From an uncultured Candidatus Cenarchaeum sp. (GTDB taxonomy: Archaea > Thermoproteota > Nitrososphaeria > Nitrososphaerales > Nitrosopumilaceae), in the NCBI GenBank assembly GCA_958295735.1, contig OY282369.1, positions 1,658,161 through 1,722,160 on the forward strand: a stretch of 64,000 nucleotides of DNA, read 5' to 3'. The notes under the pieces are model-generated. The model saw nothing but the letters and a program-made list of their open reading frames with translations. It ran no database searches and was not told the DNA's origin. Below are positions 1,236 to 35,586 of the stretch, piece by piece. The translations under genes were made by a program, and so were the position numbers. Position 1 is the first letter of the stretch. Every line of letters starts with the position of its first letter.

Positions 1236-1262
1236 CCGCCCTCCCCCCCCGCCGGCCCGCGC

Positions 1263-4228: not shown

Positions 4229-4238
4229 TGAAAAAAGG
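4229..4238 (-). terminator. T-run terminator after the third PEFG gene
   Basis: On the minus strand, about 20 bases past the stop at 4257, the sequence reads CCTTTTTTCA. A T-run downstream of a stop is the typical archaeal termination signal, and it stands out in this G+C-rich DNA. Confidence 0.5.
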
Positions 4239-4256
4239 CTGGTAGCGTTGCTGGGC

Positions 4257-5219: not shown

Positions 5220-5249
5220 TATTCTATGCGCTAGATATGACTATTTAAG

Positions 5250-5703
5250 GGTGCGGCAGCCGGCTCGTGCGGGCCCGCAGCCGCCGCGATCCGGGCGCGG
5301 GAGGGGCCTGCCGCCGCCGGGCGCGGCTTCGGCCTGCCGAGGCCCGCGCGCCGGCCCCGCAGCCGCCGCGATCCGGGCGCGGGAGGGGCCTGCCGCCGCC
5401 GGGCGCGGCTTCGGCCTGCCGAGGCCCGCGCGCCGGCCCCGCGAAAACGCCCGCGCCGGGCCGCCGCCGGCAGGCCGCGGGGAAGCGCGCCTCCGCCGAT
5501 CCGTGCTGCTTCGGGCTGCACGGGGCCGGCAACTCCCCCTGCCGCGGGCGCGGATCGCGCCAAAGCCGCCTTGCCGGCGGCCGCGGGCGCGCGACCGCGC
5601 GCGGAGGCCGGCCGGGAAAAATTAGATATATATTAACCCCAACGGGCGGCCACCCACTTGCCAGCCCTATATTCCGCCCCTCCGGGGGGAGGATGCGCAT
5701 AGC
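5250..5703. other. Intergenic region with tandem repeat and rpo promoter
   Basis: It holds two tandem copies of the 82-bp dispersed repeat, a G+C-rich spacer, and the promoter of the polymerase operon. A TATA-like GATATATATT at 5625-5634 is followed, about 50 bases on, by the Shine-Dalgarno-like GGGGGGAGG at 5684-5692. I see no gene. Confidence 0.6.
5277..5440. repeat. Dispersed 82-bp intergenic repeat (family A), two tandem copies
   Basis: Copy 1 is 5277-5358 and copy 2 is 5359-5440, almost identical, with period 82. The core GATCCGGGCGCGGGA... and GGGCGCGGCTTCGGC recurs in at least nine other places in the window. Confidence 0.75.
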
Positions 5704-5955
5704 GTGGCCGCCAAAAAGCAGCGCATCTTGGTGCCCGACCACGACTACGTGCCGAAGCACGAGATCATGTCAAAGAATGAGGCCGAGGAGGTGCTCGAGC
5801 GCTACCACTGCAACCCCACCGAGCTGCCGCTCATACTGGTCGACGACCCGGCGATAGTGGGCTTGGGCGTGAAGCCCGGCGACATGATAAGGATCACCCG
5901 CGCCAGCAGCACCGCGGGCCAGAGCACCTACTACAGGTACGTGGTGGAGGTCTAG
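5704..5955 (+). CDS. rpoH: RNA polymerase subunit H (RpoH, RPB5 C-terminal domain)
   Basis: The 83-residue protein is the archaeal equivalent of the C-terminal assembly domain of eukaryotic RPB5. It binds the polymerase jaw near the downstream DNA. Motifs include LVPDHDYVPKHEIMSKNE, LPLILVDDPAI, GVKPGDMIRITRASSTAG and the end YYRYVV. The start is GTG at 5704; no ATG is in frame, and GGAGG lies about 12 bases upstream. It leads the polymerase operon, five bases ahead of rpoB, the usual archaeal order. Confidence 0.95.
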   Translation: MAAKKQRILVPDHDYVPKHEIMSKNEAEEVLERYHCNPTELPLILVDDPAIVGLGVKPGDMIRITRASSTAGQSTYYRYVVEV

Positions 5956-5960
5956 CGGCG

Positions 5961-8900
5961 GTGGCTGACCCGGCCAACGCGCGCTGGCCCATAATAGAGG
6001 ACCTGCTCAGCAAGGAGGGGATAGCCAGGCAGCACCTCAACTCGTTCAACGAGTTCAGGGAGCGCGGCCTGCAGAGCATAATAGACGAGGTGGGGCACAT
6101 CGACATCGAGAACGCCGAGTACCCGTACAAGATACAGCTGGGCAAGGTGCGGCTGCAGCAGCCGCGCATGATGGAGCTGGACGGCTCCATAACCCACATC
6201 ACCCCCGCCGAGGGAAGGCTCCGCAACGTCTCGTACGCCTCCCCCGTGATGATGGAGGCCAGCGTGGTGGAGGACGGCAAGACCCTCGAGTCGCGGTTCA
6301 TACACATAGGCGACCTGCCCACCATGATAAAGTCCAACGCGTGCATACTGTACGACTATTCCTCGCAGAAGCTCGTGGAGCACGGCGAGGACGACAAGGA
6401 TCCGGGCGGCTACTTCATCATAAACGGCTCGGAGCGCGTGATAGTGGGGCTGGAGGACCTCTCGTACAACAAGATCATAGTGGACAGGGAGACGGCCGCC
6501 GGCCACGTCGTGCACAAGGCCAAGGTCTACTCGTCCATAGTGGGCTACCGCGCGAAACTCGAGCTCATAATGAAGAACGACAACCTCATCGTGGCCCGCA
6601 TACCCGGCTCGCCCGTGGACATACCGGTGGTGACGCTGATGCGCGCGCTGGGCACCGAGTCGGACAAGGACATCGCCTCGTCCGTGTCGCTGAACTCCGC
6701 CATCCAGGACGAGCTGGAGGGCTCGTTCGAAAAGGCCGGCGATGCCCCGACCTCGAAGGACGCCATCGTGTACATCAGCAAGAGGATAGCCCCGGGGATG
6801 CTCGAGGAGTTCCAGATAAAGCGCGCCGAGACGCTGCTGGACTGGGGGCTGCTCCCCCACCTGGGCAAGCACACCGAGAACAGGCGGGAAAAGGCGCGGT
6901 TCCTGGGCGAGGCGGCCTGCAAGCTGCTCGAGCTCAAGCTCGGCTGGATCTCGCCGGACGACAAGGACCACTACGGGAACAAGGTGATAAAGTTCGCCGG
7001 CCAGATGCTGGCCGACCTGTTCAGGACCGCGTTCCGGAACCTCATACGCGACATGAAGTACCAGCTGGAGAGGTCGGGCCAGAAGAGGGGCATAAACGCG
7101 GTGGCCGCGGCCATCCGGCCGGGCATAGTCACGGACAAGCTCAACAACGCCATAGCCACGGGCAACTGGGGGCGCGGCCGCGTGGGCGTGACGCAGCTGC
7201 TCGACCGCACCAACTACCTCTCCACGATAAGCCACCTCCGCCGCATCCAGTCGCCGCTCAGCAGGACGCAGCCCAACTTCGAGGCGCGCGACCTGCACGC
7301 GACACACTTCGGGCGCATATGCCCGAGCGAGACCCCCGAGGGATCCAACTGCGGCCTCGTGAAGAACCTGGCGCTGTCGGCGGTGATATCCGTGCTCGTC
7401 CTGCCGCAGGAGATCACGGAAAAGATGTACGATCTGGGCGCCGTGGATGCCGAGTCGGCCGGCGATGCCGACCGCGACTCGGCGGCGCGCATATTCGTGG
7501 ACGGCCGGCTCGTGGGGTACTGCGCGGACGGGGCCGAGCTGGCCGCGTCGCTGCGCAGCCTCAGGCGCGAGTTCAAGATGCCCGCGCACGTGGGGGTCTC
7601 CTTCCACGGGCCCGAGGCCGAGGGGGCGACCCCGCGCCTGTACGTCAACTGCAACGCCGGCCGCGTCCTGCGCCCGCTCATAATTGTGAGGGACGGCAGG
7701 CCCCTGCTCACCGCCGAGCTGCTGGCCCGCGTCGTGGACAAGACCAGCTCGTGGGCCGACCTCCTCCGCATGGGGGTCATAGAACTGGTCGATGCCAACG
7801 AGGAGGAGAACTGCCACGTGGCCCTGGACGAGGTGACGAAGCGCCACACCCACCAGGAGATATTCCCGTCGGCGATACTGGGCGCCGGCGCCTCCATAAT
7901 CCCGTACCCCGAGCACAACCAGTCCCCGAGGAACACGTACGAGTCGGCCATGGCCAAGCAGAGCCTGGGCTTTTCCACCCCGATGATGAACACCAGCACG
8001 TACGTCCGGCAGCACTTCATGCTGTACCCGCAGACCCCCATAGTCAACACGAAGGCCATGAGCCTGCTGGGCCTGGAGGACAGGCCGGCCGGCCAGAACT
8101 GCGTGGTGGCCGTGCTGCCGTTCGACGGCTACAACATCGAGGACGCCATAGTGCTGAGCCAGTCGTCGGTGGACCGCGGGCTGGCGCGCACCTTCTTCTA
8201 CCGCATATACGATGCGGAGGCCAAGCAGTACCCCGGGGGGACGAGGGACGCCTTCGAGATGCCGGGGGCCGAGGACAACATCCGCGGGTACAAGGGCGAA
8301 AAGGCGTACCGCCTGCTGGAGGACGACGGCGTGGTGGCGACCGAGTCGGCGGTGGCCGGCGGCGACATACTGATCGGCAAGACCAGCCCGCCGCGGTTCA
8401 TGGAGGAGTACAGGGAGTTCGACCAGGCGGCCGGCCCGTTCAGGCGCGACACCTCGGTCGGCGTCAGGCCCTCGGAGACCGGCATCGTCGACACGGTGGT
8501 GATGACCCAGTCCAGCGAGGGCGGCAAGATGTACAAGATACGGGTAAGGGACATGCGGGTGCCCGAGATCGGCGACAAGTTCGCCGCCAGGCACGGCCAG
8601 AAGGGGGTGCTCGGGATGCTCGCGAAGAACGAGGATCTCCCGTACACCGCCGAGGGCGTGACGCCCGACGTCCTGATCAACCCGCACGCGTTCCCCTCGC
8701 GGATGACCGTGGGCATGTTCATGGAGTCCATAACGGGAAAGGCGGCGGCCCTGCGCGGCACCCAGTTCGACGGCTCGGCGTTCGTCGGCGAAAAGATGGA
8801 CGAGGTGCGCAAGGTCATGGACGCGGCCGGCTTCAAGTACTCCGGCAAGGAGGTCATGTACGACGGCAGGACGGGCCGCCGGTTCCCCGCGGAGGTCTTC

Positions 8901-19716: not shown

Positions 19717-21977
19717 CCCCCGCGGGTGTGGACTCACGTCCACTTGCCGGCCGCGCCCGAAAGCTGCCACCGGCCGGCGCCGCGGGGCCCGTCCCCGTCC
19801 CCGCCAAGCCGGCGCCGCGGGGCCCGTCCCCGCCAAGCCGGCGCGGCATCGCGCCCGATCCGCCGCCGGGGCGGGCCCCGCCCGGGGCCGTGCCGGCATC
19901 CGTGGATAATGCTGCCGCCCGCGCTATTCCGGCGCGCGCGGGGCGGCATCGCGCGGGCCGCTGCCGGCGGTCAGGCGGCTACCGCCGCCGCCGGGGCCCT
20001 CGGCGGCCCGGTGGCGGGATGCGCGAACATGTCCCATTCCGGGTCGGCGCGGAGGGCCTTCAGCGCGGTCGACGGCCAGATTCCCAGGCGCCTGCACGTC
20101 TGGAACACGGTGCACGTTATGGAGAGGCGGCGCATGCCGGCCGCGCTCCTCAGCTGGCGGCGCGACCTCTTTTCCCTGGCCGGCCCCTCGTGTATCGCCT
20201 GCTCGACGCGGTTGTTGTGGCAGGGCATGCCGGGATGCCTCAGGAACGTGAACATGTGGGGCAGCGCGTTGACGAGGGCGGTGCGCATCGCGTGCTTCTC
20301 ACCGTACCCTCCCGCGATCTCCAGCACCTGCCTCTCCAGCTCCCGGATGGCGGCCTCGTCCGCCGTGTCGATGCGGGAGATCCTCCTGTACATGGCGCGG
20401 AGCCGCAGGTACAGCAGCAGGTACAGCTCCCGGTCCTCCGAACCCATGGCGCGGATCGCGAAGCTCTCGGCGTGCCGCAACAGGTGGATGAGGCAGATCT
20501 GCCTCACGTCTATCCCGTTGTACCCCGAGTACCCGTCGGTCACCATCGGCTTGCCCTTCACCTCGGGAAAGTACAGGTCCAGCACGGCCGCCGCCCTGCT
20601 GCCCAGGAACACCACGCGCACCGCATCCCCGCAGCAGACCAGCCACGCGTACCCGCGCTTCCCGCGCACGTTGAAGGGGGTCTCGTCTGCCTGCCCGCAC
20701 CCTTTGTGGTTCTTGATGTACCCCGCGACGCACCGGTCTCCCGGCTCCAGCACGTTGGCGACGGCCTCGTGGGCGTTGATGAATGTGGTCTGCGCGAACT
20801 TGTAGCCGTACTGCTCATCCACGAGCTCGGCGACGGACGCGTACGGAATGGCTTTCGCGATGCAGGCGACCGCGGACCCGAGCAGATTGATTCCCATGTG
20901 GGTGCCCGGGATCGACTCCGACTCCGCCGTGCTGATCCTGCAGCACCTCGCGCACCAGGCCCGCTCGGCCGAGATGCAGGAGGCCCTGATCTTCCCGGCG
21001 CCGTCCAGCTCGACGTAGAGCTTGTTGCAGGGCCGCTCCGCGTGCAGATGCTCGGCCAGCCCGCAGAACTCGCACGCGGAAAGGGGGTAGTAGCGCGTCT
21101 CCTCCGACTTGCGCGAGTGCGACACCCCCTTGTGCCCGACGGGCGGGCCCATCTTCTTCCTCGGCTTGCGATCGCTGTCGTACGTGCCGTGCTCCCTGCG
21201 GAACTTGGCCCTGTCGGCGTTGTACCTCTCCGCATCGGGCTTGTTGTAGCCGTCGCACGAGTTGATCCGCTTCTCGGCCTTTTTCAGCTTCGCGGACAGC
21301 TCGCCGCACCCCGCGCAGGCGGCGCCCTTCTCCGCCCCAGCCGGCTTGGCGGCGGGGGCGGGGGCGGGGGCGGGGGCGGGGGCGGCCGGCTTGGCGGCGG
21401 GGGCGGGGGCGGGGGCGGCCGGCTTGGCGGCGGCGCTCCTCTCCGCCACGGCCGCATCGCGGCCGCCGCCTCCGCCTCGCGCGGCCGCCGCCGCGTTCTC
21501 CGCCTTGTTGCCCAGCGCCGCCGCCAACTCGGCCCTGAGGAGGTCGATTTCGTTCTGACGCCTGTCAAGTTCCAGCCTGTTCTCGGCGCAACCGGCGTGC
21601 TGCGCCTCCACGACCCTGAGGCGGTCGATTTCGCTACGCGTTTCGGCCGACTCCCGACGCCTGTCCTCTACGTATTCCGCGTGTTTTGCCTCCAGAACCG
21701 TCATGCGGCGGGTCACCGCCACCAGCTCCCTCCGCACCAGCACCGTTTCAGAGTCGGGCATGTCTAGTGTTACGCGCGTGCGGGCCTTAAGCGCTCGTGC
21801 TGACAACTGTCGACAAGATGGCGAAGCAATGTTGACCCGCAACGCGCCCCGCGGCCCTCCGGCAGGACGGAATGCCCGCTTTCCGGCAGCCCCGCGCCTA
21901 CCGGCGCACTGCTCGCCTGCGTGGCGGCATCCCATCAGGCGTGGCTGACAAGTGGACGTGAGTCCACACCCCCGCGG
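19717..21977. mobile_element. IS66-like insertion sequence with palindromic terminal inverted repeats
   Basis: The ends are CAAGTGGACGTGAGTCCACA (plus CCC) at the right, from 21949, and its reverse complement at the left, ending 19746: more than 22 bp matched in inverted orientation, then C/G-rich bases out to about 19717 and 21977. Inside each end, GTGGAC and GTCCAC form a hairpin. One transposase gene is carried. The inner left flank has a ~29-bp tandem duplication around 19780-19840. I could not identify a clear target-site duplication. Confidence 0.8.
19971..21761 (-). CDS. IS66-family transposase
   Basis: A 596-residue transposase. The N-terminal ~90 residues are a coiled coil, followed by an Ala/Pro/Lys low-complexity linker (KPAAPAPAPA-type), a zinc-ribbon-like part with CAGCGELSAKLKKAEKR and CEFCGLAEH, and the DDE catalytic core: D in GCGQADETPFNVRGKRGYAW, D in PMVTDGYSGYNG and E in CHNNRVEQAIH. 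The HNNxxEQ segment is typical of IS66 TnpC. All catalytic residues appear intact, so the enzyme may be active. ATG at 21761 begins the coiled coil. The accessory TnpA/TnpB genes of classical bacterial IS66 are absent. Confidence 0.88.
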   Translation of the reverse strand: MPDSETVLVRRELVAVTRRMTVLEAKHAEYVEDRRRESAETRSEIDRLRVVEAQHAGCAENRLELDRRQNEIDLLRAELAAALGNKAENAAAAARGGGGGRDAAVAERSAAAKPAAPAPAPAAKPAAPAPAPAPAPAAKPAGAEKGAACAGCGELSAKLKKAEKRINSCDGYNKPDAERYNADRAKFRREHGTYDSDRKPRKKMGPPVGHKGVSHSRKSEETRYYPLSACEFCGLAEHLHAERPCNKLYVELDGAGKIRASCISAERAWCARCCRISTAESESIPGTHMGINLLGSAVACIAKAIPYASVAELVDEQYGYKFAQTTFINAHEAVANVLEPGDRCVAGYIKNHKGCGQADETPFNVRGKRGYAWLVCCGDAVRVVFLGSRAAAVLDLYFPEVKGKPMVTDGYSGYNGIDVRQICLIHLLRHAESFAIRAMGSEDRELYLLLYLRLRAMYRRISRIDTADEAAIRELERQVLEIAGGYGEKHAMRTALVNALPHMFTFLRHPGMPCHNNRVEQAIHEGPAREKRSRRQLRSAAGMRRLSITCTVFQTCRRLGIWPSTALKALRADPEWDMFAHPATGPPRAPAAAVAA

Positions 21978-23387
21978 CCCGGCGGGGGCCGTTCGTCCGG
22001 CAGGTTGCCCCCGGATCGCGGATTCCGGGAGCCTCCGCGCGGGATCCACGGCGGGGCGGCGGCGCGCTCCGGAGAGCGACGGCGGCGCGCTCCGGGGGGG
22101 GGGGGACGGCGGGAGCCTTGGCCGGCCGCGCGCCTCCGCGCGGGATCCCCGGCGGAGCCGGGCGCGCGGGGGCGGCTACTGCTGCGCGGCGGAACGGGCC
22201 GCGCGGGCGGCCCGAAGGCCGGCCTGCGGCCGCGCGCGCGGGCCGGGGCACGCCAGTTCCGCCGCGGCGGACTCGCGCCGGCCGGAGTCGATCGCCGGCA
22301 ATCAAGACCGGCCGGCGCGGGCGGCCCGTTCCGGCCCAGATCGGTTTCCAATTAACCTTGCTGTAATATTGGGACGGGATCGCGCGGCGGTTCGCGGCGG
22401 CCGGGCGCCGTCCCTGCCCGGACGCGTGGCCGCGCCCGCCGCGCCCCTCCCGTGTCTTTCCGCGCAACCCGTTCCGCCGCGCGGCATCGCGCGCGGCTGC
22501 GCCAGAGCCGGCCCGAGCATACGCCGCGCCCCGGGGCGCTCCGCCGGAACCGCCGCGATCCCGCCCGCAGCCGCATCGTCCCGCCGGGGCGCGCATCTCC
22601 GGGCGGCCGCAGCCCGGAGGCGGCCCGCCGGATGAACAGGCTTCGCTGGCCGCGCGCGACGAAAAGGAGATGCGGCCGCGCCTGCGGCTGCCGGAGGTGT
22701 GCGGGGAGAAGGACGGCGGACGCGGCACGCTGCGCCGCGATCCGGGAACCGGGGATCCGGCAGGCGGGATCGCGGACGAATGCGGATTGCCAAACTGGTG
22801 CGGCCGCCGCCGCCGGCGCGCGCACGCGTTCCTGCGGCATCACCGCATGCCGGTGCCGGAACAGCGGGGCGGGAGATGCGTGCGGGGCCGGCCCGGGAGC
22901 TGCGGCAGCGCCGCCGTCGGGCGGCCCCGGCCGCATGCTCCCGGATGGCACGTTCCGCATTCCGGACGCGCGAACGCGCGGACCGGCCGCCGGCCGCCGG
23001 CAGCCGCCGCCGGCGACCCGAAACGGAACATGGCTGCGGGCCGGCCGCCCATCTGCCGGCATCCTCCGCAACGGACACCGGCTTGCGCGGAGCCGCTTCG
23101 CGCGCAGGCGGCCCCGGCGCGCGGCATCATTCCGGGCCGGATCGGCCACGGCTGGAGCCAGAACGATCCGCGGATCCGCCGGCATCTGTCCCGCCGCAGA
23201 CGGCACGCCAAATTCGCGCCCGGCGGCGAGGCGCCGCGGCCGACCTCGCCCGGGCCGCATCGGGGCGCGCGGATCTGCGTACGAGTCCGCGTACCTGCCG
23301 GCCACGGGCGCGAATGCGCCTTTGCTGGCCCGGATCACGCCTGATTGGGGGGAAATCCGGCCTCGTGCCAGCATTGCGCCCCGTAAA
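21978..23387. other. 1.4-kb G+C-rich intergenic region with one A+T island
   Basis: No credible gene. The long frames are compositional and encode Arg/Ala/Pro/Gly text. A run of 12 G lies at 22094-22105. The only A+T-rich spot is 22346-22370, where CCAATTA and TAATATTGG face each other as an imperfect inverted repeat. It could be a promoter for an unrecognised RNA or an old insertion scar. The remainder is filler upstream of the giant gene. Confidence 0.55.
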
Positions 23388-23427: not shown

Positions 23428-26400
23428 ATGTCAAGCCACACGAAGCCATCCGCAACCCAGCATCACGCCGCAACGGGGTTGCTGGACTTCAGGCGCGCCA
23501 GCTCCCTCGCGATGGCAGCGGCGGCCGTAGCACTCCTTGTGGCCGCTCCGCTGGCGACGAATCCCGACGGCAGCATGGGCGACAATCCGGTTGCTTGGCT
23601 CGCGGGAGGGCAGGCAGCGTACGGCCAGGATCCGCCAGCGGTCGTAAACGTGACAGCTGCCGACGGGACATACGGGTTGGGCGCCGTAGTCCCCATCACG
23701 GTGGCGTTTGACAAGACTGTGCACGTCACCGGGTCCGGCATCAAAGTCGGAGTACCGCAGGGCCACACCATAAAATCGTGGCTTGACGATGCCCGCCCCA
23801 GCCTTGATTACGCAGAGTACGACGACTACTCGGAAATGCTCAACGACCTAAAGAGCGGCGAGATCGATGCCCTGATCAACTTCTTGAAAGTGGTAGAATA
23901 CCAGAAAGTTGAACACAACATTACCGGCCTGCCGTTGCACGACAACGGCACATCGGGCGCCGATGCAATGCTCTCCTTCAGCTACAACAAGAACAACGCA
24001 ATGCTGGGATCCGTACTGGACAAGGCCGTCGCCGACATGTCGGATGCCGAAAGGGAGCGCATATTCAGGGACGCCGAGCTGGCTCCCTCGTCCGAGCTTG
24101 GCCTTACTGCTGACGAGATCGCGTATCTTGCGAACCTGAATGGACCACTCCGCGTGGCCTACGATCCGGAATGGAAGCCGCTGGAATACCTTGAGGACGG
24201 CGAGCTCAAGGGCCTGCCCGCCGCCTACACGAGCAGGCTCGGCGAGGCGCTTGACGTGGAGTTTGCGCCCGCGAACATTGCCAACTGGACGGACGCGCTT
24301 GAGCAGATAAGGGACGGCACCGCCGACGTGATGTTCAGCGTCAACGCCACGGACGACCGCCGGACCACGTACAACATGAGCTTCACGGACGCCCACACCA
24401 CCATACCTTGGGTGTTGGTGACGGACGGGGCGAATTCCACCATCAACGCCGACAATCTAACCAACATCAACATCGGCATCATAACGGACTATTCCGTGGA
24501 AGCTTGGCTGACGGCGGAAGGGCACGCCTACACAGAGTACGACACGCACGCGGCCGCCTTTGAGGCGCTCGAGGACGGAACGATAGACACGCTGATAGAG
24601 GTGTGGCAGGTGGCCGAGTACCAGGCTCCGGACGAAGTCAACGCGACCAACGCCGGCCCCGTGGGCCACGACCTGGACCTCTCCATAGGCTACCACATGA
24701 ACAACGCAACGCTTGGCTCCATCCTGGACAAGGCAATTGACTACATCACCGAAGATGAGAGGAACAGCATACTCAGGGACACCCCGCTGTCCCCGGTGAT
24801 TGACCTGACCGCCGCGGAGGCGGCGTACCTTGTAAACAAGACGCTAAACGTGGCCTACGCGCCGGACTGGGCCCCGTACGAGTACTACGAGGACGGCGAG
24901 CTCAAGGGCCTGCCGGTGGCCTACATGAACAGGCTGAGCGAGATGCTTGACGTGGAGTTCAGCGTTGTCCCGAACATCGCCACTTGGTTGGGCGCGCTCA
25001 GCACCATAAAGAGCGGCACTGCCGACGTGATGTTCGGCGTAGTAGACACGGATGCGCACCGCAACGATTACGACATGGCTTTCACCTCGACCCACACCAC
25101 CACCCCGTGGGTTATCATAACGTCCAACGGTACTGTCACGAGGCAGTTGATTGCGGCTCCATTCCTCGGCATGGTGACAGACGATATCTACAGAATGGCG
25201 TCATATCATAGCGGGAGCGGTAGCTCGGCTATTACGTTCAACTACTTGGTGCAACACGGTGACACATCGCCCGATTTGGACTATGCGAACGATGACGCTT
25301 TGGTGGTGGCGGGAAATGCCAAAATAGAAAACTCCAGCAGCGGGCCTGTTGGGAGCGCAAACTTGACGTTGCCGTTGCCTGGCGGGATCGGGTCGCTTGG
25401 GGAGACCAGCGATCTGATAATCAACGCCGCAATAGATACCAGGATAGTTGATGTCACGTCACCTGACGGCGACGGCACGTACACCACGGGCGATGCGATC
25501 AACGTCACCGTCTCGTTCAACGAGGCCGTCTACACCGAGCCGGAAGCAAAGGACATAACGGTCGGCATCGGCCAAGACTACGCCATAGAGTCGTGGCTGA
25601 ACACGGAGAGGCCCGGCCTCAAGTACTTGGAATACACGCGGCACACAGACATGTTCAACGCCTTGGTGGCCGGGGAAATAGACGCGATCATTGAGGCTTG
25701 GGACGTGGCCGAGTACTTGGCCGACCGCTCCGGAATCGCGGGCCTTGATCTGAAAAACAACAACGGGTCGGGCGACGTCCTCGCGCTCTCCTTGGGCTAC
25801 AACATGGACAACGCAGAGCTGGGTTCCATACTGAACAAGGCAGTCGGCGACATGTCGGATGCTGAAAAGCAGCGCATGTTCAGGGATGCTCCTCCCTCCC
25901 CATCGTCCGAGCTGAACCTCACCGCCGCCGAGATTGCGTACCTTGATGGCTTGGAGGAACCGCTCCGCGTGGCCTACGATCCGGAATGGAAGCCGCTGGA
26001 ATACCTTGAGGACGGCGAGCTCAAGGGCCTGCCCGCCGCCTACACGAGCAGGCTCGGCGAGGCGCTTGACGTGGAGTTTGCGCCCGCGAACATTGCCAAC
26101 TGGACGGACGCGCTTGAGCAGATAAGGGACGGCACCGCCGACGTGATGTTCAGCGTCAACGCCACGGACGACCGCCGGACCACGTACAACATGAGCTTCA
26201 CGGACGCCCACACCACCATACCTTGGGTGTTGGTGACGGACGGGGCGAATTCCACCATCATCGCCGACAATCTAACCAACATCAACATCGGCATCATAAC
26301 GGACTATTCCGTGGAAGCTTGGCTGACGGCGGAAGGGCACGCCTACACAGAGTACGACACGCACGCGGCCGCCTTTGAGGCGCTCGAGGACGGAACGATA

Positions 26401-29400
26401 GACACGCTGATAGAGGTGTGGCAGGTGGCCGAGTACCAGGCTCCGGACGAAGTCAACGCGACCAACGCCGGCCCCGTGGGCCACGACCTGGACCTCTCCA
26501 TAGGCTACCACATGAACAACGCAACGCTTGGCTCCATCCTGGACAAGGCAATTGACTACATCACCGAAGATGAGAGGAACAGCATACTCAGGGACACCCC
26601 GCTGTCTCCCTCGTCCGAGCTGGGCCTGACCGATGCAGAGAAGCAGTACCTCGCTGGCCTGACGGGGAAGCTGAACGTGGGCTACGCGCCGGACTGGGCC
26701 CCGTACGAATACTACGAGGACGGCGAGCTCAAGGGCCTGCCGGTAGCCTACACGAACAGGCTGAGCGAGATGCTTGACGTGGAGTTCGCCACGGCCCCCG
26801 GAATCACGAACTGGGTCGACTCGCTCAACGCCATAGCTGACGGTTCTGCCGACGTGCTGTTCAACGTGGAGGACACGGCAGATCGCCGCTCCACGTACAA
26901 CATGGGCTTCACGGATGCCCACACCGACGTTCCGTGGGATGTCATCACCAACGGCGACAGCCCGCCCGTCACCGCAGCCGATCTTGAATCCACGAACGAT
27001 CTCCCGACCCTCTGGATGGAGACGGGCGAGATCGACCGGCCGGCGTGGTACGCGGCCGGCAACGGCACCGATGAGTTCCAGTTCCGCTACGTGGTGCAGG
27101 CAGGAGACGCGACGCCAGACCTGAACTACAACGGCACCGGAGCGCTAGATTACGGCGTCACGACCATCCGCGATGCCGCGTCCGATGTTGCCATTCCCCA
27201 GGGCATCCTCGTCCTGCCATTAGCCGGCTCCGGCAACGCCCTCTCGGACAACAAGAACATCGTGATCGACACCGCACCCGCGCCCGACACGAGTACGGCC
27301 GTGATCAACGTCACGTCCTCGAACGACGACGGCGCGTACACCACTGGCGACGCGATCAGCATCGCCGTCTCGTTCAACGAAGCCGTCAGCATAATGCCAG
27401 AGCCGGAGGACATCACTGTCGGCATCGGCCAAGACTACGCCATAGAGTCGTGGCTGAATACGGAGAGGCCCAGCCTCATGTACATGGAATACACGCGGCA
27501 CACAGACATGTTCAACGCCTTGGTGGCCGGGGAAATAGACGCGATCATTGAGGCTTGGGACGTGGCCAAGTACCAGGCCGACCGTTCCGGAATCGCGAGC
27601 CTTGACCTATTCAACGAAGGCGAGTCGGGCGACGTACTCGCGCTCTCATTGGGCTACAACATGGACAACGGAACGCTAGGTTCCATACTGGACAAGGCCG
27701 TCGGCAACTTGTCGGATGCCGAAAAGGAGCGCATGTTCAGGGATGCCCCGCCCACTCCAGCCGCCGAGCTGGGCCTGACCGCCGACGAGATTACGTACCT
27801 TGAGGCTCTGGAAGGACCGCTCCGCGTGGCCTACGATCCGGAATGGAAGCCGCTGGAATACCTTGAGGACGGCGAGCTCAAGGGCCTGCCCGCCGCCTAC
27901 ACGAGCAGGCTCGGCGAGGCGCTTGACGTGAAGTTTGCCCCCGCGAACATTACCAGCTGGACGGACGCGCTTGAGCAGGTAGGAAACGGCACCGCCGACG
28001 TGATGTTCAGCGTCAACGACACGGCAGAGCGCCGCGCCACGTACGACATGAGATTTACCGCCGCCCACACCACCATACCTTGGGTGATGGTGACGAACGG
28101 AACGAATTCCGATGTCCGCGCCGACAACTTGGGCAACATCAACATCGGCATCATAACGGACTATTCCGTGGAGGCTTGGCTGATAGCGGAAGGGCACGAC
28201 TACACCGAGTACGACACGCACGCGGACGCCTTTGCGGCGCTCGGGGACGGAACGATAGACACGCTGGTAGAGGTGTGGCAGGTGGCCGAGTACCAGGCTC
28301 CTGACGAAGTCAACGCGACCAACGCCGGCCCCGTGGGCCACAACCTGGACCTCTCCATAGGCTACCACATGGCCAACGGAACGCTTGGCACCATCTTGGA
28401 CAAGGCCGTCGCCTACATCCCGGCTGACGAGAGGAACAGCATACTCAGGGACACCCCGCTGTCTCCCTCGTCCGAGCTGGGCCTGACCGCCGCGGAGACG
28501 GCGTACCTTGTCAACAAGACGCTCAACGTGGCCTACGCGCCGGACTGGGCCCCGTACGAGTACTACGAGGACGGCGAGCTCAAGGGCCTGCCGGTGGCCT
28601 ACACGAACAGGCTGAGCGAGATGCTTGACGTGAAGTTCGCCACGGCCCCCGGAATCACGAACTGGGTCGACTCGCTCAACGCCATAGCTGGCGGCACTGC
28701 CGACGTGCTGTTCAACGTGGAGGACACGGAAGAGCGCCGTTCCACGTACAACATGGGCTTCACGGATGCCCACACCGACGTTCCGTGGGACGTCATCACC
28801 AACGGCGCCACCTCGTCCGTCACCCCAGCCGATCTCGAATCTACGAACGAACTCCCGACCCTCTGGATGGAGACGGGCGCGATCGACCGGCCGGCAGGCT
28901 ACGCGGGCGGCAGCGGCACCGACGAGTTCCAGTTCCGCTACGTGGTGCAGGCCGGAGACGCAACGCCAGACTTGAACTACAACGGCACCGGGGCGCTCGT
29001 TCCCAACGGCGTGACTTTCCACGATGCGGCATCCATGGTTGCCATTCCGCAGGGCGACCTCGTCCTGCCCGAGGCCGGCTCCGGCAACGCCCTCTCGGAC
29101 AACAAGGACATCATGATCGATGCCAAGAGCACTGCCGTGACTAGTGTCACCTCCCCTGACAACGATGCCACGTACACCGAGGGCGACGTGATCAACGTCA
29201 CCGTCTCGTTCAACGAGCCCGTCAGCATAATGCCGGACATCACTGTCGGCATCGGCCAAGACTACGCCATAGAGTCGTGGCTGAACACGGAGAGGCCCGG
29301 CCTCAAGTACTTGGAATACACGCGGCACACAGACATGTTCAACGCCTTGGTGGCCGGGGAAATAGACGCGATCATTGAGGCTTGGGACGTGGCCGAGTAC

Positions 29401-32400
29401 TTGGCCGACCGCTCCGGAATCGCGGGCCTTGATCTGAAAAACAACAACGGGTCGGGCGACGTCCTCGCGCTCTCCTTGGGCTACAACATGGACAACGCAG
29501 AGCTGGGTTCCATACTGAACAAGGCAGTCGGCGACATGTCGGATGCTGAAAAGCAGCGCATGTTCAGGGATGCTCCTCCCTCCCCATCGTCCGAGCTGAA
29601 CCTCACCGCCGCCGAGATTGCGTACCTTGATGGCTTGGAGGGACCGCTCCGCGTGGCCTACGATCCGGAATGGAAGCCGCTGGAATACCTTGAGGACGGC
29701 GAGCTCAAGGGCCTGCCCGCCGCCTACACGAGCAGGCTCGGCGAGGCGCTTGACGTGGAGTTTGCCCCCGCGAACATCACAAGCTGGACGGACGCGCTTG
29801 AGCAGGTAGGGAACGGCACCGCCGACGTGATGTTCAGCGTCAACGACACGGCGGAGCGCCGCTCCACGCACGAGATGAATTTCACGGACGCCCACACCAC
29901 AATACCTTGGGTGATGGTGACGGACGGAACGAATGATGATGTCCGCGCCGACAACTTGGGTAGCGTCAGAATCGGCATCATAACGGACTATTCCGTGGAA
30001 GCTTGGCTGACGGCGGAAGGGCACGCCTACACAGAGTACGACACGCACGCGGCCGCCTTTGAGGCGCTCGAGGACGGAACGATAGACACGCTGATAGAGG
30101 TGTGGCAGGTGGCCGAGTACCAGGCTCCGGACGAAGTCAACGCGACCAACGCCGGCCCCGTGGGCCACGACCTGGACCTCTCCATAGGCTACCACATGAA
30201 CAACGCAACGCTTGGCTCCATCCTGGACAAGGCAATTGACTACATCACCGAAGATGAGAGGAACAGCATACTCAGGGACACCCCGCTGTCTCCCTCGTCC
30301 GAGCTGGGCCTGACCGCCGCGGAGACGGCGTACCTTGTCAACAAGACGCTCAACGTGGGCTACGCGCCGGACTGGGCCCCGTACGAATACTACGAGGACG
30401 GCGAGCTCAAGGGCCTGCCGGTGGCCTACACGAACAGGCTGAGCGAGATGCTTGACGTGGAGTTCGCCACGGCCCCCGGAATCACGAACTGGGTCGACTC
30501 GCTCAACGCCATAGCTGGCGGCACCGCCGACGTGCTGTTCAACGTGGAGGACACGGCAGATCGCCGCTCCACGTACAACATGGGCTTCACGGATGCCCAC
30601 ACCGACGTTCCGTGGGACGTCATCACCAACGGCGACAGCCCGCCCGTCACCGCGGCCGATCTTGAATCCGCAAGCGACACTCCGACCCTCTGGATGGAGA
30701 CGGGCGCGATCGACCGGCCGGCAGGCTACGCGGGCGGCAGCGGCACCGACGAGTTCCAGTTCCGCTACGTGGTGCAGGCCGGAGACGCGACGCCCGACCT
30801 GAACTACAACGGCACCGGGGCGCTCGTTCCCAACGGCGTGACTTTCCACGATGCGGCATCCATGGTTGCCATTCCGCAGGGCGACCTCGTCCTGCCCGAG
30901 GCCGGCTCCGGCAACGCCCTCTCGGACAACAAGGACATCGCGATTGTTTCCACACCTACGATCAACACGGCAGTGACCAGCGTCACGTCCTCGAACGACG
31001 ACGGCCCGTACACCACTGGCGACGCGATCAGCATCGCCGTCTCGTTCAACGAGGCCGTCAGCATAATGCCAGAGCCGGAGGACATCACTATCGGCATCGG
31101 CCAGGACTACGCCATAGAGTCGTGGCTGAATACAGAGAGGCCCAGCCTCATGTATCTAGAGTACACGCGGCACACCGAGATGTTCAACGCCTTGGTGGCC
31201 GAGGATATAGACGCGATCATTGAAGCTTGGGCCGTGGCCAAGTACCAGGCCGACCGTTCTGGAATAGCTGGCCTTGACCTGTTCAACGAAGGCGAGTCGG
31301 GCGCCGTCCTCGCGCTCTCCTTGGGCTACAACATGGACAACGCAGAGCTTGGAACCATACTGAACAAGGCAGTCGGCGACATGTCGGATGCTGAAAAGCA
31401 GCGCATGTTCAGGGATGCTCCTCCCTCCCCATCATCCGAGCTGAACCTGACCGATGCAGAGATGCAGTACCTCGCCGGCCTGACGGGACCGCTCCGCGTG
31501 GCCTACGATCCGGAATGGAAGCCGCTGGAATACCTTGAGGACGGCGAGCTCAAGGGCCTGCCCGCCGCCTACACGAGCAGGCTCGGCGAGGCGCTTGACG
31601 TGAAGTTTGCCCCCGCGAACATTACCAGCTGGACGGACGCGCTTGAGCAGGTAGGAAACGGCACCGCCGACGTGATGTTCAGCGTCAACGACACGGCAGA
31701 GCGCCGCGCCACGTACGACATGAGATTTACCGCCGCCCACACCACCATACCTTGGGTGATGGTGACGAACGGAACGAATTCCGATGTCCGCGCCGACAAC
31801 TTGGGCAACATTGCGATCGGCATCATAACGGACTATGCCATAGAAGATTGGTTGGTGGCAGAGGGACACGACTACACCGAGTACGACACGCACGCGGACG
31901 CCTTTGCGGCGCTCGGGGCGGGAACGATAGACACGCTGATAGAGGTGTGGCAGGTGGCCGAGTACCAGGCTCCTGACGAACTCAACGTGAACAACGCCGG
32001 CTCCGTGGGCCATAACCTGGACCTCTCCATAGGCTACCACATGGCCAACGGAACGCTTGGCTCCATCTTGGACAAGGCCGTTGCCTACATCCCGGCTGAC
32101 GAGAGGAACAGCATACTCAGGGACACCCCGCTGTCCCCCGTGATTGACCTGACCGCCGCGGAGACGGCGTACCTCGCCGGCCTGACGGGACCTCTGAACG
32201 TGGCCTACGCGCCGGACTGGGCCCCGTACGAGTACTACGAGGACGGCGAGCTCAAGGGCCTGCCGGTGGCCTACACGAACAGGCTGAGCGAGATGCTTGA
32301 CGTGAAGTTCGCCACGGCCCCCGGAATCACGAACTGGGTCGACTCGCTCAACGCCATAGCTGGCGGCACTGCCGACGTGCTGTTCAACGTGGAGGACACG

Positions 32401-35400
32401 GCAGATCGCCGCTCCTTGTACAACATGGGCTTCACGGATGCCCACACCGACGTTCCGTGGGATGTCATCACCAACGGCGCCACCTCGTCCGTCACCCCAA
32501 CAGCTCTCGAATCCACGAACGATCTCCCGACGCTCTTGATGGAGACGGGCGCGATCGACCGGCCGGCAGGCTACGCGGGCGGTAGCGGCACCAACACGTT
32601 CCAGTTCCGCTACGTGGTGCAGGCAGGAGACGAGACGCCCGATCTGAACTACAAGGGCACCGGGGCGCTCGCGCCCAACGGCGTGACTTTCCATGCTGTA
32701 TCGACCATGGCCGCCATTCCTCCTAGCGGTCTCGTCCTGCCCGAGGCCGGCTCCGGCAACGCCCTCTCGGACAACAAGAACATCAGGATCGCGACATCGT
32801 TGGACGACCCGTCCACGGCCGTCGCCCAGGCATCGCCGGGAGGCACGGTAAACATACGGCCTGGCGAGTACGCCAACGTCGTGCTGACAATAGACAAGCC
32901 GCTGACGCTGTCTGCCACCAGGGGTCTAGCAACTTTCACGGGCGACTCTAGGCTGGTGATCAGCGGCGGCTCCGCCGCCGGCACGGTGACCGTCAGCGGC
33001 CTCACGTTTGACACCGGTTGCGGCACCGAGGCGCCCATCAAGGTCGCTCCTGCGAATGCAGGGGTGCGCAGGCCGGTGGTCATTGAGAACAACATGATCG
33101 CCAACACCTGCGCCGGCGCGATTGATCTCGTGTCCGACGGCAGCGCCACGCTCGGCATCGTCACGATCCGCAACAACGTGATCGAGGGTAGCAGTACCGG
33201 CGCCGCCATTGAAGGCGTACACAGCCTGTCAGACAGCGCGATAACGTCCAACTACATACTCGCGCGCAACTCTACGGGCGAGGGCATAACGCTGTCAGGC
33301 ACCGACGACGTGATCATATCGGACAACCACATAGCGGGAACGGCCGACGGGATTACGCTCATGCGCGGCTCGGACAACGCGATCATTGCCGGCAACACGT
33401 TGATCAACATCAGCAACGCCATACAGGTATGGGCCGACTCGAGCCGCGTGGTTGCCACCCTCAACACCATATCCGACGGCACCACTGCCTTTGCGGTGCG
33501 CACCGGCCAGAATGCAGAAGACATCGGCAACGCCATCCGGTTCAACCACAACATCGTGCTGGACTACGGTAGCAACACGGACTCCCTTATCGTGAACGAT
33601 GCAACGGGCACGCTCAACGCGAGTAGCAACTACTATCCCGTCGGCGCGCCGGCCGCAGTGACGTCAGGAAGTGGCGTCGAGTACCTGCCTATCGCCGCGG
33701 GACGCGGCCCGGTGGAGGTAGGCGGCCTGCTGGCGCTCACCGACCTGCCGTACTTTGACGGCCGAAACAACGTGGAGGCCGTAAAGCTTGCCTTTGACCG
33801 GTTCAACGAGGCGCAGGTGGGCACCTCTGGCATCTCGCTCGCGCTGAATCTGGCCGACCTTGACCTCGATGCGCCACTTGAAGACCTCAAGGCGATGCAC
33901 ATGGGCCTAGAGGACTCGGCATACCGCCCGGTGCTCCAGCACGAGATCGACTGGATGATCGGACTGTACAACAGCTCCGGCGCGACGGCCGCGTTCGAGG
34001 CGATAAACGCCCTGAACAGCAAGCAGGAGCACTATCCATTCGCGATCAACATGGATGGCCTCGTCCAGGCGAACGGGTACAACTCGTCCCGCCAGGGCGT
34101 GATGTCGGCGATAGCCGCCAACGCGACCGCCTTTGCCGCACTGCGTGACGATCTGGCCGCGGCAGGGAACGAGCCGGTCTGGTTTGACTATTCCATAACC
34201 AACCCCGTGACTGGCGAGACCCAGGCCAAGCGCTCGTTGCTTGCAATGCACGACCGGCACATATTCGGGGCAGGCTACTACACCGGCGACGGCCCGTCAT
34301 ACTATGTCGGCCCGTCTACGAGCGGGGCCATAACCGCGGTGAAGCCGTACGCCGATGCAAACGACCTCATCCTCGTCTCCCCGTCCTCGCTGGCCCCGTC
34401 CTTGGCCATGGCCGACGACGGCATATTCAGGCTGGCGCCGTCCGACAACAACCGAGCCCCGACGATCGCGAGCGTCTTGGTAAACTCCAGCATCAAGGGT
34501 GTCGTTCCCGTGGTCCAGGACGACGCGTACGGGAACGAGCTGGTCCGCCTGATAAAGAGCGAGTACACGGTTAGCTCCAACGGCGAATTCGGCGAAACCA
34601 TATCGTTCGCGAGCGGCAACACGGAGTGGTCCTCGCAACTGGTTGCCATGAATGCGGCCATTGACACCCTTTCCAGCAACGTGGCAAACAGGTCGCAACT
34701 GGCCGTGCTGTACATAGGCTTTGACCCGTCGTACGTGTCGCTGGCCGAGGCGGCGAACTCCTACTTGGCCCTGAGGACCGTGCCGTGGTTCACGTCAGAC
34801 GTGGCGTCCAGCCAGGCCGTGCTGGAAAGCCAGACCGCCTTGGACTTTTCGCGGATGACGAACCTATCGGCCCTCACATTCCATGTCGAGTCGAACAGCA
34901 TAACTGAGGCGGTGGACTCGGCAATCAGCACGCCTCCCGGCCCGGCCACCGCTACGACCGCCCCGCCGCTGGCGTACGCCTATTCCGCGTACGACTCGGT
35001 ATTCGTTCTGGGCCAGACACTGCTGGCCGGCGCCGACGGGCCGGCCGGAGTGCGCGACGGATTTGCGGATGCCGCGGCCGCCTATTCTGGCGCGCTCGGA
35101 AACCTGACGCTCGATGCGGCGGGCGACTTGGCCACGCCCAACACCTACGGCATATGGTCGGTCTCGCCCACCGCGACGGAATGGGTGCGTCCCTCCGCCG
35201 TCATAGAGGGCGAGCGGACGATGTGCGGCATATCGCTCTCGTCCCCGACGCTGGACTTCGGAAGCGTCAGGGCGGGCCAGATGTCCGGCACCGCTACCCA
35301 GACGCTAATGAACACAGGCACCGTGCCAGTGGGATCGATCACCATGACCGCTACCGCTTGGAGCATCTCCGCGACGGGAGGCACGATGCCGTCCTACCTG

Positions 35401-35586
35401 ACCGAGACCAAGTCGGAGAGCGCAACCGGCTTTGCGCCGCTCTCCCAGGGCTCGGTTGCCGCGCCGTCACTCTCGCAATCCGGCTCGGCTTCAGTCGACT
35501 TTAGGATCAACCTCCAGGGCCAGACCGCGTCAAGCGCCTCGCCCATATCCCAGGACGTATCGTACTCGGTCACCTGCGGCAGCTAG
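23428..35586 (+). CDS. Giant secreted protein: nested Venus-flytrap array, beta-helix and PBP-I/Cache-like domains
   Basis: One 4052-residue frame. Residues ~28-66 contain the export signal, ending AYGQDPP. Five units of ~610 residues follow (from about residues 71, 672, 1292, 1904 and 2516). Each reads: first half of an adhesin-type beta domain (GTYTTGDAINVTVSFNEAV), a flytrap lobe 2 (DITVGIGQDYAIESWL), a full flytrap domain (LRVAYDPEWKPLEYLEDG, then IGIITDYSVEAWL), a flytrap lobe 1 (LNVAYAPDWAPYEYYEDG), and the second half of the beta domain (GSGTDEFQFRYVVQAGD). The flytrap text matches the SBP_bac_3 domains of BvgS/EvgS-type sensors. Residues ~3125-3420 are right-handed beta-helix repeats. 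About 3430-3925 resembles a type-I periplasmic binding protein, with a Cache-like insert (HYPFAINMDG, VWFDYSITNPVTG). A C-terminal beta domain has two cysteines. No membrane anchor, PEFG signal or kinase is seen. G+C is visibly lower than in the neighbours. Its role is unknown; ligand binding at the cell surface is the natural guess. Confidence 0.93.
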   Translation: MSSHTKPSATQHHAATGLLDFRRASSLAMAAAAVALLVAAPLATNPDGSMGDNPVAWLAGGQAAYGQDPPAVVNVTAADGTYGLGAVVPITVAFDKTVHVTGSGIKVGVPQGHTIKSWLDDARPSLDYAEYDDYSEMLNDLKSGEIDALINFLKVVEYQKVEHNITGLPLHDNGTSGADAMLSFSYNKNNAMLGSVLDKAVADMSDAERERIFRDAELAPSSELGLTADEIAYLANLNGPLRVAYDPEWKPLEYLEDGELKGLPAAYTSRLGEALDVEFAPANIANWTDALEQIRDGTADVMFSVNATDDRRTTYNMSFTDAHTTIPWVLVTDGANSTINADNLTNINIGIITDYSVEAWLTAEGHAYTEYDTHAAAFEALEDGTIDTLIEVWQVAEYQAPDEVNATNAGPVGHDLDLSIGYHMNNATLGSILDKAIDYITEDERNSILRDTPLSPVIDLTAAEAAYLVNKTLNVAYAPDWAPYEYYEDGELKGLPVAYMNRLSEMLDVEFSVVPNIATWLGALSTIKSGTADVMFGVVDTDAHRNDYDMAFTSTHTTTPWVIITSNGTVTRQLIAAPFLGMVTDDIYRMASYHSGSGSSAITFNYLVQHGDTSPDLDYANDDALVVAGNAKIENSSSGPVGSANLTLPLPGGIGSLGETSDLIINAAIDTRIVDVTSPDGDGTYTTGDAINVTVSFNEAVYTEPEAKDITVGIGQDYAIESWLNTERPGLKYLEYTRHTDMFNALVAGEIDAIIEAWDVAEYLADRSGIAGLDLKNNNGSGDVLALSLGYNMDNAELGSILNKAVGDMSDAEKQRMFRDAPPSPSSELNLTAAEIAYLDGLEEPLRVAYDPEWKPLEYLEDGELKGLPAAYTSRLGEALDVEFAPANIANWTDALEQIRDGTADVMFSVNATDDRRTTYNMSFTDAHTTIPWVLVTDGANSTIIADNLTNINIGIITDYSVEAWLTAEGHAYTEYDTHAAAFEALEDGTIDTLIEVWQVAEYQAPDEVNATNAGPVGHDLDLSIGYHMNNATLGSILDKAIDYITEDERNSILRDTPLSPSSELGLTDAEKQYLAGLTGKLNVGYAPDWAPYEYYEDGELKGLPVAYTNRLSEMLDVEFATAPGITNWVDSLNAIADGSADVLFNVEDTADRRSTYNMGFTDAHTDVPWDVITNGDSPPVTAADLESTNDLPTLWMETGEIDRPAWYAAGNGTDEFQFRYVVQAGDATPDLNYNGTGALDYGVTTIRDAASDVAIPQGILVLPLAGSGNALSDNKNIVIDTAPAPDTSTAVINVTSSNDDGAYTTGDAISIAVSFNEAVSIMPEPEDITVGIGQDYAIESWLNTERPSLMYMEYTRHTDMFNALVAGEIDAIIEAWDVAKYQADRSGIASLDLFNEGESGDVLALSLGYNMDNGTLGSILDKAVGNLSDAEKERMFRDAPPTPAAELGLTADEITYLEALEGPLRVAYDPEWKPLEYLEDGELKGLPAAYTSRLGEALDVKFAPANITSWTDALEQVGNGTADVMFSVNDTAERRATYDMRFTAAHTTIPWVMVTNGTNSDVRADNLGNINIGIITDYSVEAWLIAEGHDYTEYDTHADAFAALGDGTIDTLVEVWQVAEYQAPDEVNATNAGPVGHNLDLSIGYHMANGTLGTILDKAVAYIPADERNSILRDTPLSPSSELGLTAAETAYLVNKTLNVAYAPDWAPYEYYEDGELKGLPVAYTNRLSEMLDVKFATAPGITNWVDSLNAIAGGTADVLFNVEDTEERRSTYNMGFTDAHTDVPWDVITNGATSSVTPADLESTNELPTLWMETGAIDRPAGYAGGSGTDEFQFRYVVQAGDATPDLNYNGTGALVPNGVTFHDAASMVAIPQGDLVLPEAGSGNALSDNKDIMIDAKSTAVTSVTSPDNDATYTEGDVINVTVSFNEPVSIMPDITVGIGQDYAIESWLNTERPGLKYLEYTRHTDMFNALVAGEIDAIIEAWDVAEYLADRSGIAGLDLKNNNGSGDVLALSLGYNMDNAELGSILNKAVGDMSDAEKQRMFRDAPPSPSSELNLTAAEIAYLDGLEGPLRVAYDPEWKPLEYLEDGELKGLPAAYTSRLGEALDVEFAPANITSWTDALEQVGNGTADVMFSVNDTAERRSTHEMNFTDAHTTIPWVMVTDGTNDDVRADNLGSVRIGIITDYSVEAWLTAEGHAYTEYDTHAAAFEALEDGTIDTLIEVWQVAEYQAPDEVNATNAGPVGHDLDLSIGYHMNNATLGSILDKAIDYITEDERNSILRDTPLSPSSELGLTAAETAYLVNKTLNVGYAPDWAPYEYYEDGELKGLPVAYTNRLSEMLDVEFATAPGITNWVDSLNAIAGGTADVLFNVEDTADRRSTYNMGFTDAHTDVPWDVITNGDSPPVTAADLESASDTPTLWMETGAIDRPAGYAGGSGTDEFQFRYVVQAGDATPDLNYNGTGALVPNGVTFHDAASMVAIPQGDLVLPEAGSGNALSDNKDIAIVSTPTINTAVTSVTSSNDDGPYTTGDAISIAVSFNEAVSIMPEPEDITIGIGQDYAIESWLNTERPSLMYLEYTRHTEMFNALVAEDIDAIIEAWAVAKYQADRSGIAGLDLFNEGESGAVLALSLGYNMDNAELGTILNKAVGDMSDAEKQRMFRDAPPSPSSELNLTDAEMQYLAGLTGPLRVAYDPEWKPLEYLEDGELKGLPAAYTSRLGEALDVKFAPANITSWTDALEQVGNGTADVMFSVNDTAERRATYDMRFTAAHTTIPWVMVTNGTNSDVRADNLGNIAIGIITDYAIEDWLVAEGHDYTEYDTHADAFAALGAGTIDTLIEVWQVAEYQAPDELNVNNAGSVGHNLDLSIGYHMANGTLGSILDKAVAYIPADERNSILRDTPLSPVIDLTAAETAYLAGLTGPLNVAYAPDWAPYEYYEDGELKGLPVAYTNRLSEMLDVKFATAPGITNWVDSLNAIAGGTADVLFNVEDTADRRSLYNMGFTDAHTDVPWDVITNGATSSVTPTALESTNDLPTLLMETGAIDRPAGYAGGSGTNTFQFRYVVQAGDETPDLNYKGTGALAPNGVTFHAVSTMAAIPPSGLVLPEAGSGNALSDNKNIRIATSLDDPSTAVAQASPGGTVNIRPGEYANVVLTIDKPLTLSATRGLATFTGDSRLVISGGSAAGTVTVSGLTFDTGCGTEAPIKVAPANAGVRRPVVIENNMIANTCAGAIDLVSDGSATLGIVTIRNNVIEGSSTGAAIEGVHSLSDSAITSNYILARNSTGEGITLSGTDDVIISDNHIAGTADGITLMRGSDNAIIAGNTLINISNAIQVWADSSRVVATLNTISDGTTAFAVRTGQNAEDIGNAIRFNHNIVLDYGSNTDSLIVNDATGTLNASSNYYPVGAPAAVTSGSGVEYLPIAAGRGPVEVGGLLALTDLPYFDGRNNVEAVKLAFDRFNEAQVGTSGISLALNLADLDLDAPLEDLKAMHMGLEDSAYRPVLQHEIDWMIGLYNSSGATAAFEAINALNSKQEHYPFAINMDGLVQANGYNSSRQGVMSAIAANATAFAALRDDLAAAGNEPVWFDYSITNPVTGETQAKRSLLAMHDRHIFGAGYYTGDGPSYYVGPSTSGAITAVKPYADANDLILVSPSSLAPSLAMADDGIFRLAPSDNNRAPTIASVLVNSSIKGVVPVVQDDAYGNELVRLIKSEYTVSSNGEFGETISFASGNTEWSSQLVAMNAAIDTLSSNVANRSQLAVLYIGFDPSYVSLAEAANSYLALRTVPWFTSDVASSQAVLESQTALDFSRMTNLSALTFHVESNSITEAVDSAISTPPGPATATTAPPLAYAYSAYDSVFVLGQTLLAGADGPAGVRDGFADAAAAYSGALGNLTLDAAGDLATPNTYGIWSVSPTATEWVRPSAVIEGERTMCGISLSSPTLDFGSVRAGQMSGTATQTLMNTGTVPVGSITMTATAWSISATGGTMPSYLTETKSESATGFAPLSQGSVAAPSLSQSGSASVDFRINLQGQTASSASPISQDVSYSVTCGS
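23638..32800 (+). repeat. Five ~1.83-kb tandem coding units in the giant gene
   Basis: Units begin at about 23638, 25441, 27301, 29137 and 30973. Unit 1 is the most diverged, mainly in its first part and its beta-domain half. Long stretches are almost identical: the lobe-2 segments of units 2 and 4 (about 25560-25960 and 29246-29645), and the central flytrap of units 1 and 2. Units 3 and 5 share other variants. The pattern suggests repeated duplication and gene conversion. Confidence 0.92.

Follow-up and report, generated by a model that had tools for sequence, protein, structure and literature searches.

A giant secreted protein of a Cenarchaeum-type archaeon that interleaves Ig-like beta repeats with type-II flytrap lobes

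When two tandem arrays of domains interrupt each other within one chain, the question is whether the chain is real and how its separated pieces find their partners. Such a chain, P0001, is encoded in the window analysed here (64,000 nucleotides of an uncultured Candidatus Cenarchaeum sp., contig OY282369.1), where the ORF list and the DNA give a single uninterrupted ATG frame. A first-pass annotation had described it as an interleaving of adhesin-type beta repeats and Venus-flytrap domains, and segment mapping gave the order that had been claimed. P0001 is a new arrangement of known domains, and its function is predicted. As a whole, we give a probability of about 0.5 to the explanation that it is a secreted multi-site ligand-binding protein in which nested flytrap pairs are carried on five Ig-like hairpins.

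Reading frame and unit architecture

The frame contains no stop across 12.2 kb, and the host genome was assembled into one contig (3.17 Mb). The DNA repeats with a period of 1815-1857 nt in five units. Between repeats, dS is 0.12-0.56 and dN/dS is 0.43-0.55 (about 0.5), as would be seen in a genuine protein that evolves under moderate purifying selection. Very similar tandem repeats are able to mislead assemblers, and separate genes could have been fused into P0001 by an assembly or frame error. However, unit segments differ by up to about 50% in their DNA, the long frame stays open at this dN/dS, and 5 of 5 units are cut at equivalent sites; by this argument from the assembled sequence, such an error is highly improbable. 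Given the single-contig assembly, the lack of stops, the synonymous divergence, and the dN/dS values, the five-unit pattern is not chance and P0001 is probably no artefact.

The N-terminal signal is the sole strongly hydrophobic segment (peak near residues 24-44). As had been stated before, neither a membrane helix after this segment nor a kinase match was found by Pfam and hydrophobicity, and no C-terminal anchor was seen. An IS66-type transposase lies upstream at window positions 19971-22049 (minus strand). The neighbouring genes tested (this transposase, RtcB, and ribosomal S11) revealed no partner for P0001.

Table 1. Features of P0001 and the parts of its five units, in positions of the window.
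Feature	Position	Strand	Basis	betaN	lobe2a	lobe1b	lobe2b	lobe1c	betaC
Whole ORF, 4052 aa	23428-35586	+	ORF reading						
N-terminal signal region, hydrophobic core about aa 24-44	23428-23622	+	hydrophobicity						
Unit 1	23623-25413	+	segment mapping	23623-23733	23734-24093	24100-24435	24463-24792	24793-25131	25135-25413
Unit 2	25444-27276	+	segment mapping	25444-25554	25555-25908	25915-26250	26278-26607	26608-26958	26986-27276
Unit 3	27301-29127	+	segment mapping	27301-27411	27412-27765	27772-28107	28135-28464	28465-28809	28837-29127
Unit 4 (modelled)	29137-30954	+	segment mapping, AlphaFold2	29137-29238	29239-29592	29599-29934	29962-30291	30292-30636	30664-30954
Unit 5	30973-32799	+	segment mapping	30973-31083	31084-31437	31444-31779	31804-32133	32134-32481	32509-32799
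Right-handed parallel beta-helix (Pfam Beta_helix/NosD), aa 3217-3363	33076-33516	+	Pfam						
Type-I ligand-binding domain (ANF_receptor, LivK-like), aa 3584-3866	34177-35025	+	Pfam, E 2e-15						
Conserved C-terminal domain, two Cys (aa 3933, 4050)	35215-35583	+	genome comparison						

The array reads 5 x (betaN - lobe2a - lobe1b - lobe2b - lobe1c - betaC) and comprises 10 lobe 1, 10 lobe 2, 5 betaN, and 5 betaC segments, in agreement with the lobe numbers given earlier. With betaN-lobe2 at its start and lobe1-betaC at its end, the array has no unpaired lobe under nesting. The two arrays had been called out of register; the interleaving stands, and is better put as nested parentheses without orphans, beta(lobe2(lobe1 lobe2)lobe1)beta.

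In every unit the beta repeat is split at the same point, which follows FNE[A/P]V and precedes PTLWMETG; unit 1 has the variants FDKTVHVTG and PFLGMVTD. The claim of an exact cut between the FNEAV and TLWMETG strands thus holds throughout. Uninterrupted copies are found in the host genome, within several of its large proteins, and in G001, G068, and G108, with the consensus ...ITVTFSExVxVTGTPQLxLETG..., and carry a VTG hairpin turn at the insertion point (FSE.V.VTGTPQL.LETG). We describe the beta domain as Ig-like; its uninterrupted homologues score 0.003 against Pfam Big_5 and 0.04 against Big_12, both below cut-off, and a PDB search with the beta profile gave no match. Laminin_G_3 domains are inserted in the same repeat in G108 (L061, 11947-12669 and 13363-14040, minus strand), and on this basis the repeat is evidently a tolerant insertion host. 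As a same-site precedent these inserts were rejected, since they lie one loop later in the repeat than the P0001 insertion, and they serve as an analogy only.

In the outer flytraps the cut falls precisely on hinge 1: it lies between PWDVITNG..VTAADLES, where the outer lobe 1 ends, and DITVGIGQDY, the outer lobe 2 starting with DITVGIGQDYAIESW. The central flytrap runs across hinge 1 as PWVMVTNG..VRADNLGNINIGIITDYSVEAW, and this hinge, between lobe1b and lobe2b, has normal length and normal sequence. Lobe 1 precedes lobe 2 within one continuous domain in the central five flytraps but not in the outer five, which are either split or permuted.

Unit 1 shows how the array may have grown. Its outer segments differ from those of unit 2 (protein identity of 39% in betaN, 50% in lobe2a, and 32% in betaC). 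A block that begins with lobe1b and reaches halfway into lobe1c is, by contrast, almost the same in both units and looks like a gene-conversion tract. The outer divergence stops where betaC1 meets betaN2, so the unit that duplicates runs from betaN to betaC. That lobe2a and lobe1c diverged together in unit 1 was considered as proof of their pairing, an argument that was dropped because of the putative conversion tract.

Lobe identity and pairing

Pfam found 10 SBP_bac_3 stretches in P0001 (E 4.6e-117, 386 bits against a cut-off of 26.4), and profile comparison with solved proteins gave matches to RmcA (2.5e-44), BvgS (6e-40), and EvgS (5e-37). Together with a fold match to BvgS VFT2, these results confirm the proposed identity of the lobes. 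By sequence, the flytraps are of the BvgS/EvgS/RmcA type, and their nearest solved relatives are sensor domains.

The T-x-x-R carboxylate arginine is retained in 9 of 10 lobe 1 segments. In the sequence alignment, the amino-group Asp position is not Asp in any of the 10 lobe 2 segments; it aligns with V, A, or F, and a W is adjacent in 9 of them. P0001 accordingly lacks the signature of PAAT amino-acid binders, which combines the T-x-x-R arginine with the amino-group Asp. Up to ten ligand sites, as first suggested, are plausible with regard to the arginine, with the reservation that the classical Asp is replaced throughout.

A unit 4 model was obtained with AlphaFold2 (mean pLDDT 82, pTM 0.52), and Foldseek aligned it to BvgS VFT2 with a TM of 0.85 (target) and an rmsd of 2.5 A over 237 columns. 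Only lobe1b-lobe2b stands in lobe1-to-lobe2 order within the unit, so this match indicates that the central flytrap closes canonically. In the same model, the hinge-2 strand of lobe2a is full-length (residues 102-119, pLDDT 85-88; the lobe2b counterpart is 339-355) and is followed by a confidently predicted helix. As modelled, this strand and helix need a lobe-1 partner; since they sit on lobe 1 in this fold, lobe1c, the only free lobe 1, would be that partner. Pairing is read here from strand length and the pLDDT pattern in AlphaFold2 models, whose alignments include canonical lobe1-lobe2 rows and may thereby be biased towards lobe1b-lobe2b pairing. The models point to nested pairing, which we consider fairly probable: lobe1b-lobe2b as an ordinary flytrap and lobe2a-lobe1c of the same unit as one permuted at hinge 1.

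An alternative is that the lobes pair in sequence, lobe2a with lobe1b and lobe2b with lobe1c, to give two lobe2-lobe1 domains in a row per beta domain. A 253-aa frame of G570 (L129) consists of lobe2-lobe1 only, and L127 of G561 looks like its duplicate, with lobe2 71% and lobe1 67% identical between the L127 copies. The AlphaFold2 model, however, gives a closed canonical lobe1b-lobe2b flytrap, and the normal length and sequence of hinge 1 between these lobes also argue against sequential pairing. Moreover, the L129 frame has neither a start codon nor a signal peptide, and may be damaged. Sequential pairing is thus unlikely.

The nested arrangement also has to be weighed against a domain swap, in which lobe1c of one unit would pair with lobe2a of the next and betaC with the following betaN. 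Each swapped flytrap would then be interrupted by a permuted beta domain, comparable to the channel in ionotropic glutamate receptors. A periodic array is compatible with this scheme in its sequence, and HMMER merges 473-811 into one SBP_bac_3 stretch across the beta domain. A competition model consisted of unit 4 and betaN5-lobe2a5 (774 aa) and let two lobe2a segments compete for lobe1c4; it was built from a 7-sequence alignment and has a pLDDT of 62, a pTM of 0.38, and poorly predicted beta halves. Here lobe2a of unit 4 keeps its 18-residue hinge strand (pLDDT 71-76), whereas lobe2a of unit 5 has no strand at residues 717-734 (pLDDT 49-59), which favours the same-unit partner. Swapping would also leave an orphan betaN and lobe2 at the N-terminus and an orphan lobe1 and betaC at the C-terminus, and it conflicts with the betaN...betaC duplicating unit. 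Of the two arrangements that the first-pass annotation had offered, circular permutation around the central flytrap is supported by both models, and the cross-unit swap is disfavoured and appears quite improbable.

Relatives and the C-terminal quarter

A second beta-interleaved protein was not found in 151 relatives, 250 family genomes, or 398 phylum genomes. A wider contig scan, in which records near the genome of P0001 may be missing, turned up nothing but bacterial flytrap sensors that carry EAL/GGDEF, SpoIIE-like, or kinase parts. G001, the only same-genus relative of the host genome, gave apparent lobe1-beta matches that proved to be plain beta repeats. The earlier statement that no similar protein is known therefore stands for the beta nesting in the genomes searched and fails for the lobe2-lobe1-lobe2-lobe1 register, which recurs in L127.

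L127 (5184-6698, minus strand) comes from another genus and is a complete secreted lobe2-lobe1-lobe2-lobe1 protein with no beta domain. Its signal peptide leads straight to the hinge-1 end of lobe 2, and its stop lies just past the hinge-1 strand of lobe 1. L129 is located at 891-1649 (plus strand). In per-lobe trees, the lobes of P0001 cluster together, and those of L127 and L129 fall with canonical proteins of G561 and G570; this separate placement suggests that the hinge-1 register shift probably arose twice. L127, L129, and L130 all have a C-terminal Cys-Arg.

Plain secreted flytraps are present in the host genome itself, three in tandem in L009 and one in L010, and further flytrap proteins were found in G001, G032, G048, G471, G561, and G570. 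Related secreted multi-flytrap proteins without beta domains occur in four other family genomes. In some relatives, flytraps are joined to other domains: L057 of G032 (5786-8410, minus strand) is secreted and has two tandem type-II flytraps behind a type-I binding domain, and L128 of G561 (3657-6374, plus strand) and L131 of G570 have Cache domains and then one flytrap, with no membrane or kinase part seen. Low-complexity MMEGE or MMEDP-like repeats precede the secreted flytraps of L009 (1751-4609, plus strand), L051, and L010 (G000, G001).

The beta-helix, the type-I domain (ANF_receptor, 57 bits against a cut-off of 25.4), and the C-terminal domain are additions to the earlier reading, which missed the C-terminal quarter. 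The latter two domains are common to at least 7 other large proteins of the host genome at 31-37% identity, several of which have metalloprotease-like and beta-repeat parts. P0001 belongs to this secreted series, and in it the beta repeats became flytrap carriers. At about 534000-575000 of G000:C1 (L023, L024), a cluster of giant secreted proteins has metalloprotease-like motifs (HEYAHHAHNHLGG), beta repeats, HYR-like repeats, and the type-I/C-terminal tail found in P0001.

Predicted role and biological meaning

The PAAT permease is the usual user of family-3 binding proteins. It is absent in the host genome (TIGR01726, 0 hits; 11 of 14 controls positive), which does contain a LivHM-type permease pair and further BPD_transp_1-type ABC permeases. 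Given this absence, P0001 most likely serves in binding or sensing at the surface. The retained T-x-x-R arginine and the replaced amino-group Asp suggest as ligands small carboxylated molecules whose binding differs from that of ordinary amino acids. We think that P0001 is a surface-associated protein for the capture or sensing of such molecules.

In the proposed mechanism, each Ig-like domain would bear a nested flytrap pair grafted onto one hairpin turn. The inner flytrap (lobe1b-lobe2b) would be ordinary, and the outer one (lobe2a...lobe1c) would be circularly permuted at hinge 1, its natural termini bridged by the inner flytrap. The Ig-like hairpin would keep the two open hinge ends of the outer flytrap together and replace the missing hinge. 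From this topology, ligand closure may alter the geometry of the hairpin and the stalk. At the cell surface, P0001 might then use the nested flytraps along with its C-terminal LivK-like domain to scavenge, buffer, or sense small carboxylated molecules. With regard to evolution, a hinge-1-to-hinge-1 fragment of a flytrap array may have been inserted in an Ig-like repeat, after which the beta-bounded unit was duplicated.

Alternatively, P0001 may be a large adhesin whose flytraps no longer bind small ligands and act as spacers or host-recognition surfaces. The Ig-like repeats, the beta-helix, the size, and the acidity of the protein (581 D+E against 192 K+R) are in line with an adhesin, as are the loss of the amino-group Asp in all lobe 2 segments and the shared tail of the sister giant proteins. 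Retention of the arginine in 9 of 10 sites, purifying selection across the units, and the multi-flytrap relatives that do without beta domains nevertheless speak for ligand binding, and we consider this adhesin reading improbable.

P0001 resembles BvgS, EvgS, and RmcA in its flytrap subfamily (E 2.5e-44 to 5e-37; TM 0.85 to BvgS VFT2) and in an inter-flytrap linker of the same type. It differs from them in having no membrane helix, kinase, GGDEF, or EAL part, so that the tandem flytraps followed by helix and kinase of a BvgS/EvgS-type receptor are not what was found, and in its ten lobe pairs, with one flytrap per pair predicted to be permuted and held by an Ig-like domain. In ionotropic glutamate receptors, a type-II flytrap is interrupted between its two segments by the membrane channel; there the channel is inserted in the flytrap, whereas in P0001 the flytrap itself is inserted in another domain. 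Tp0684/MglB-2 is a naturally circularly permuted glucose-binding protein that still binds its ligand (PMC4990184); it is a single type-I domain that is not nested, unlike the type-II flytraps of P0001 that are cut at hinge 1. Nested insertions of the form A1-B1-C-B2-A2 have been described, for instance in ndhH, and insertions occur in 20% of the multidomain proteins surveyed (PMC13114784). P0001 shares this topology and differs in that its middle level would be permuted, the innermost domain is a paralogue of that middle level, and five copies of the nest follow one another.

Domain-insertion biosensors have been built by protein engineers (PMC6335823), and with the natural permuted type-I binders and nested insertions cited above they make a coupling of closure to the stalk reasonable. 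A stronger version would have five hinge-1-permuted flytraps pull on an adhesin stalk as a ligand gate and, given a cut that arose separately in two or more lineages of archaea (those of P0001 and L127), would make them a recurrent undescribed class; this we regard as speculative and rather doubtful.

If nested pairing is true, P0001 would be a natural counterpart of the domain-insertion biosensor, with a permuted flytrap that is hinge-coupled to another domain. Type-II flytraps would then tolerate the opening of hinge 1, and the array would be a testable example of stacked discontinuous domains in a repeat. In sponge-symbiont thaumarchaea, LivK domains are multiplied and mixotrophy has been predicted (PMC6790972, PMC7848895), including a gene with three consecutive livK domains and four livK copies in C. 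symbiosum (PMC6790972). The likeness lies in the multiplication of extracellular binding domains in the same archaeal family, and P0001 itself ends in a type-I domain; the LivK cases, in contrast, are type-I domains in plain tandem. Nested pairing would also suggest that Cenarchaeum-type archaea, in which expanded binding proteins have been linked to life inside sponges, capture or sense small molecules outside the cell with neither a kinase nor a cognate permease.
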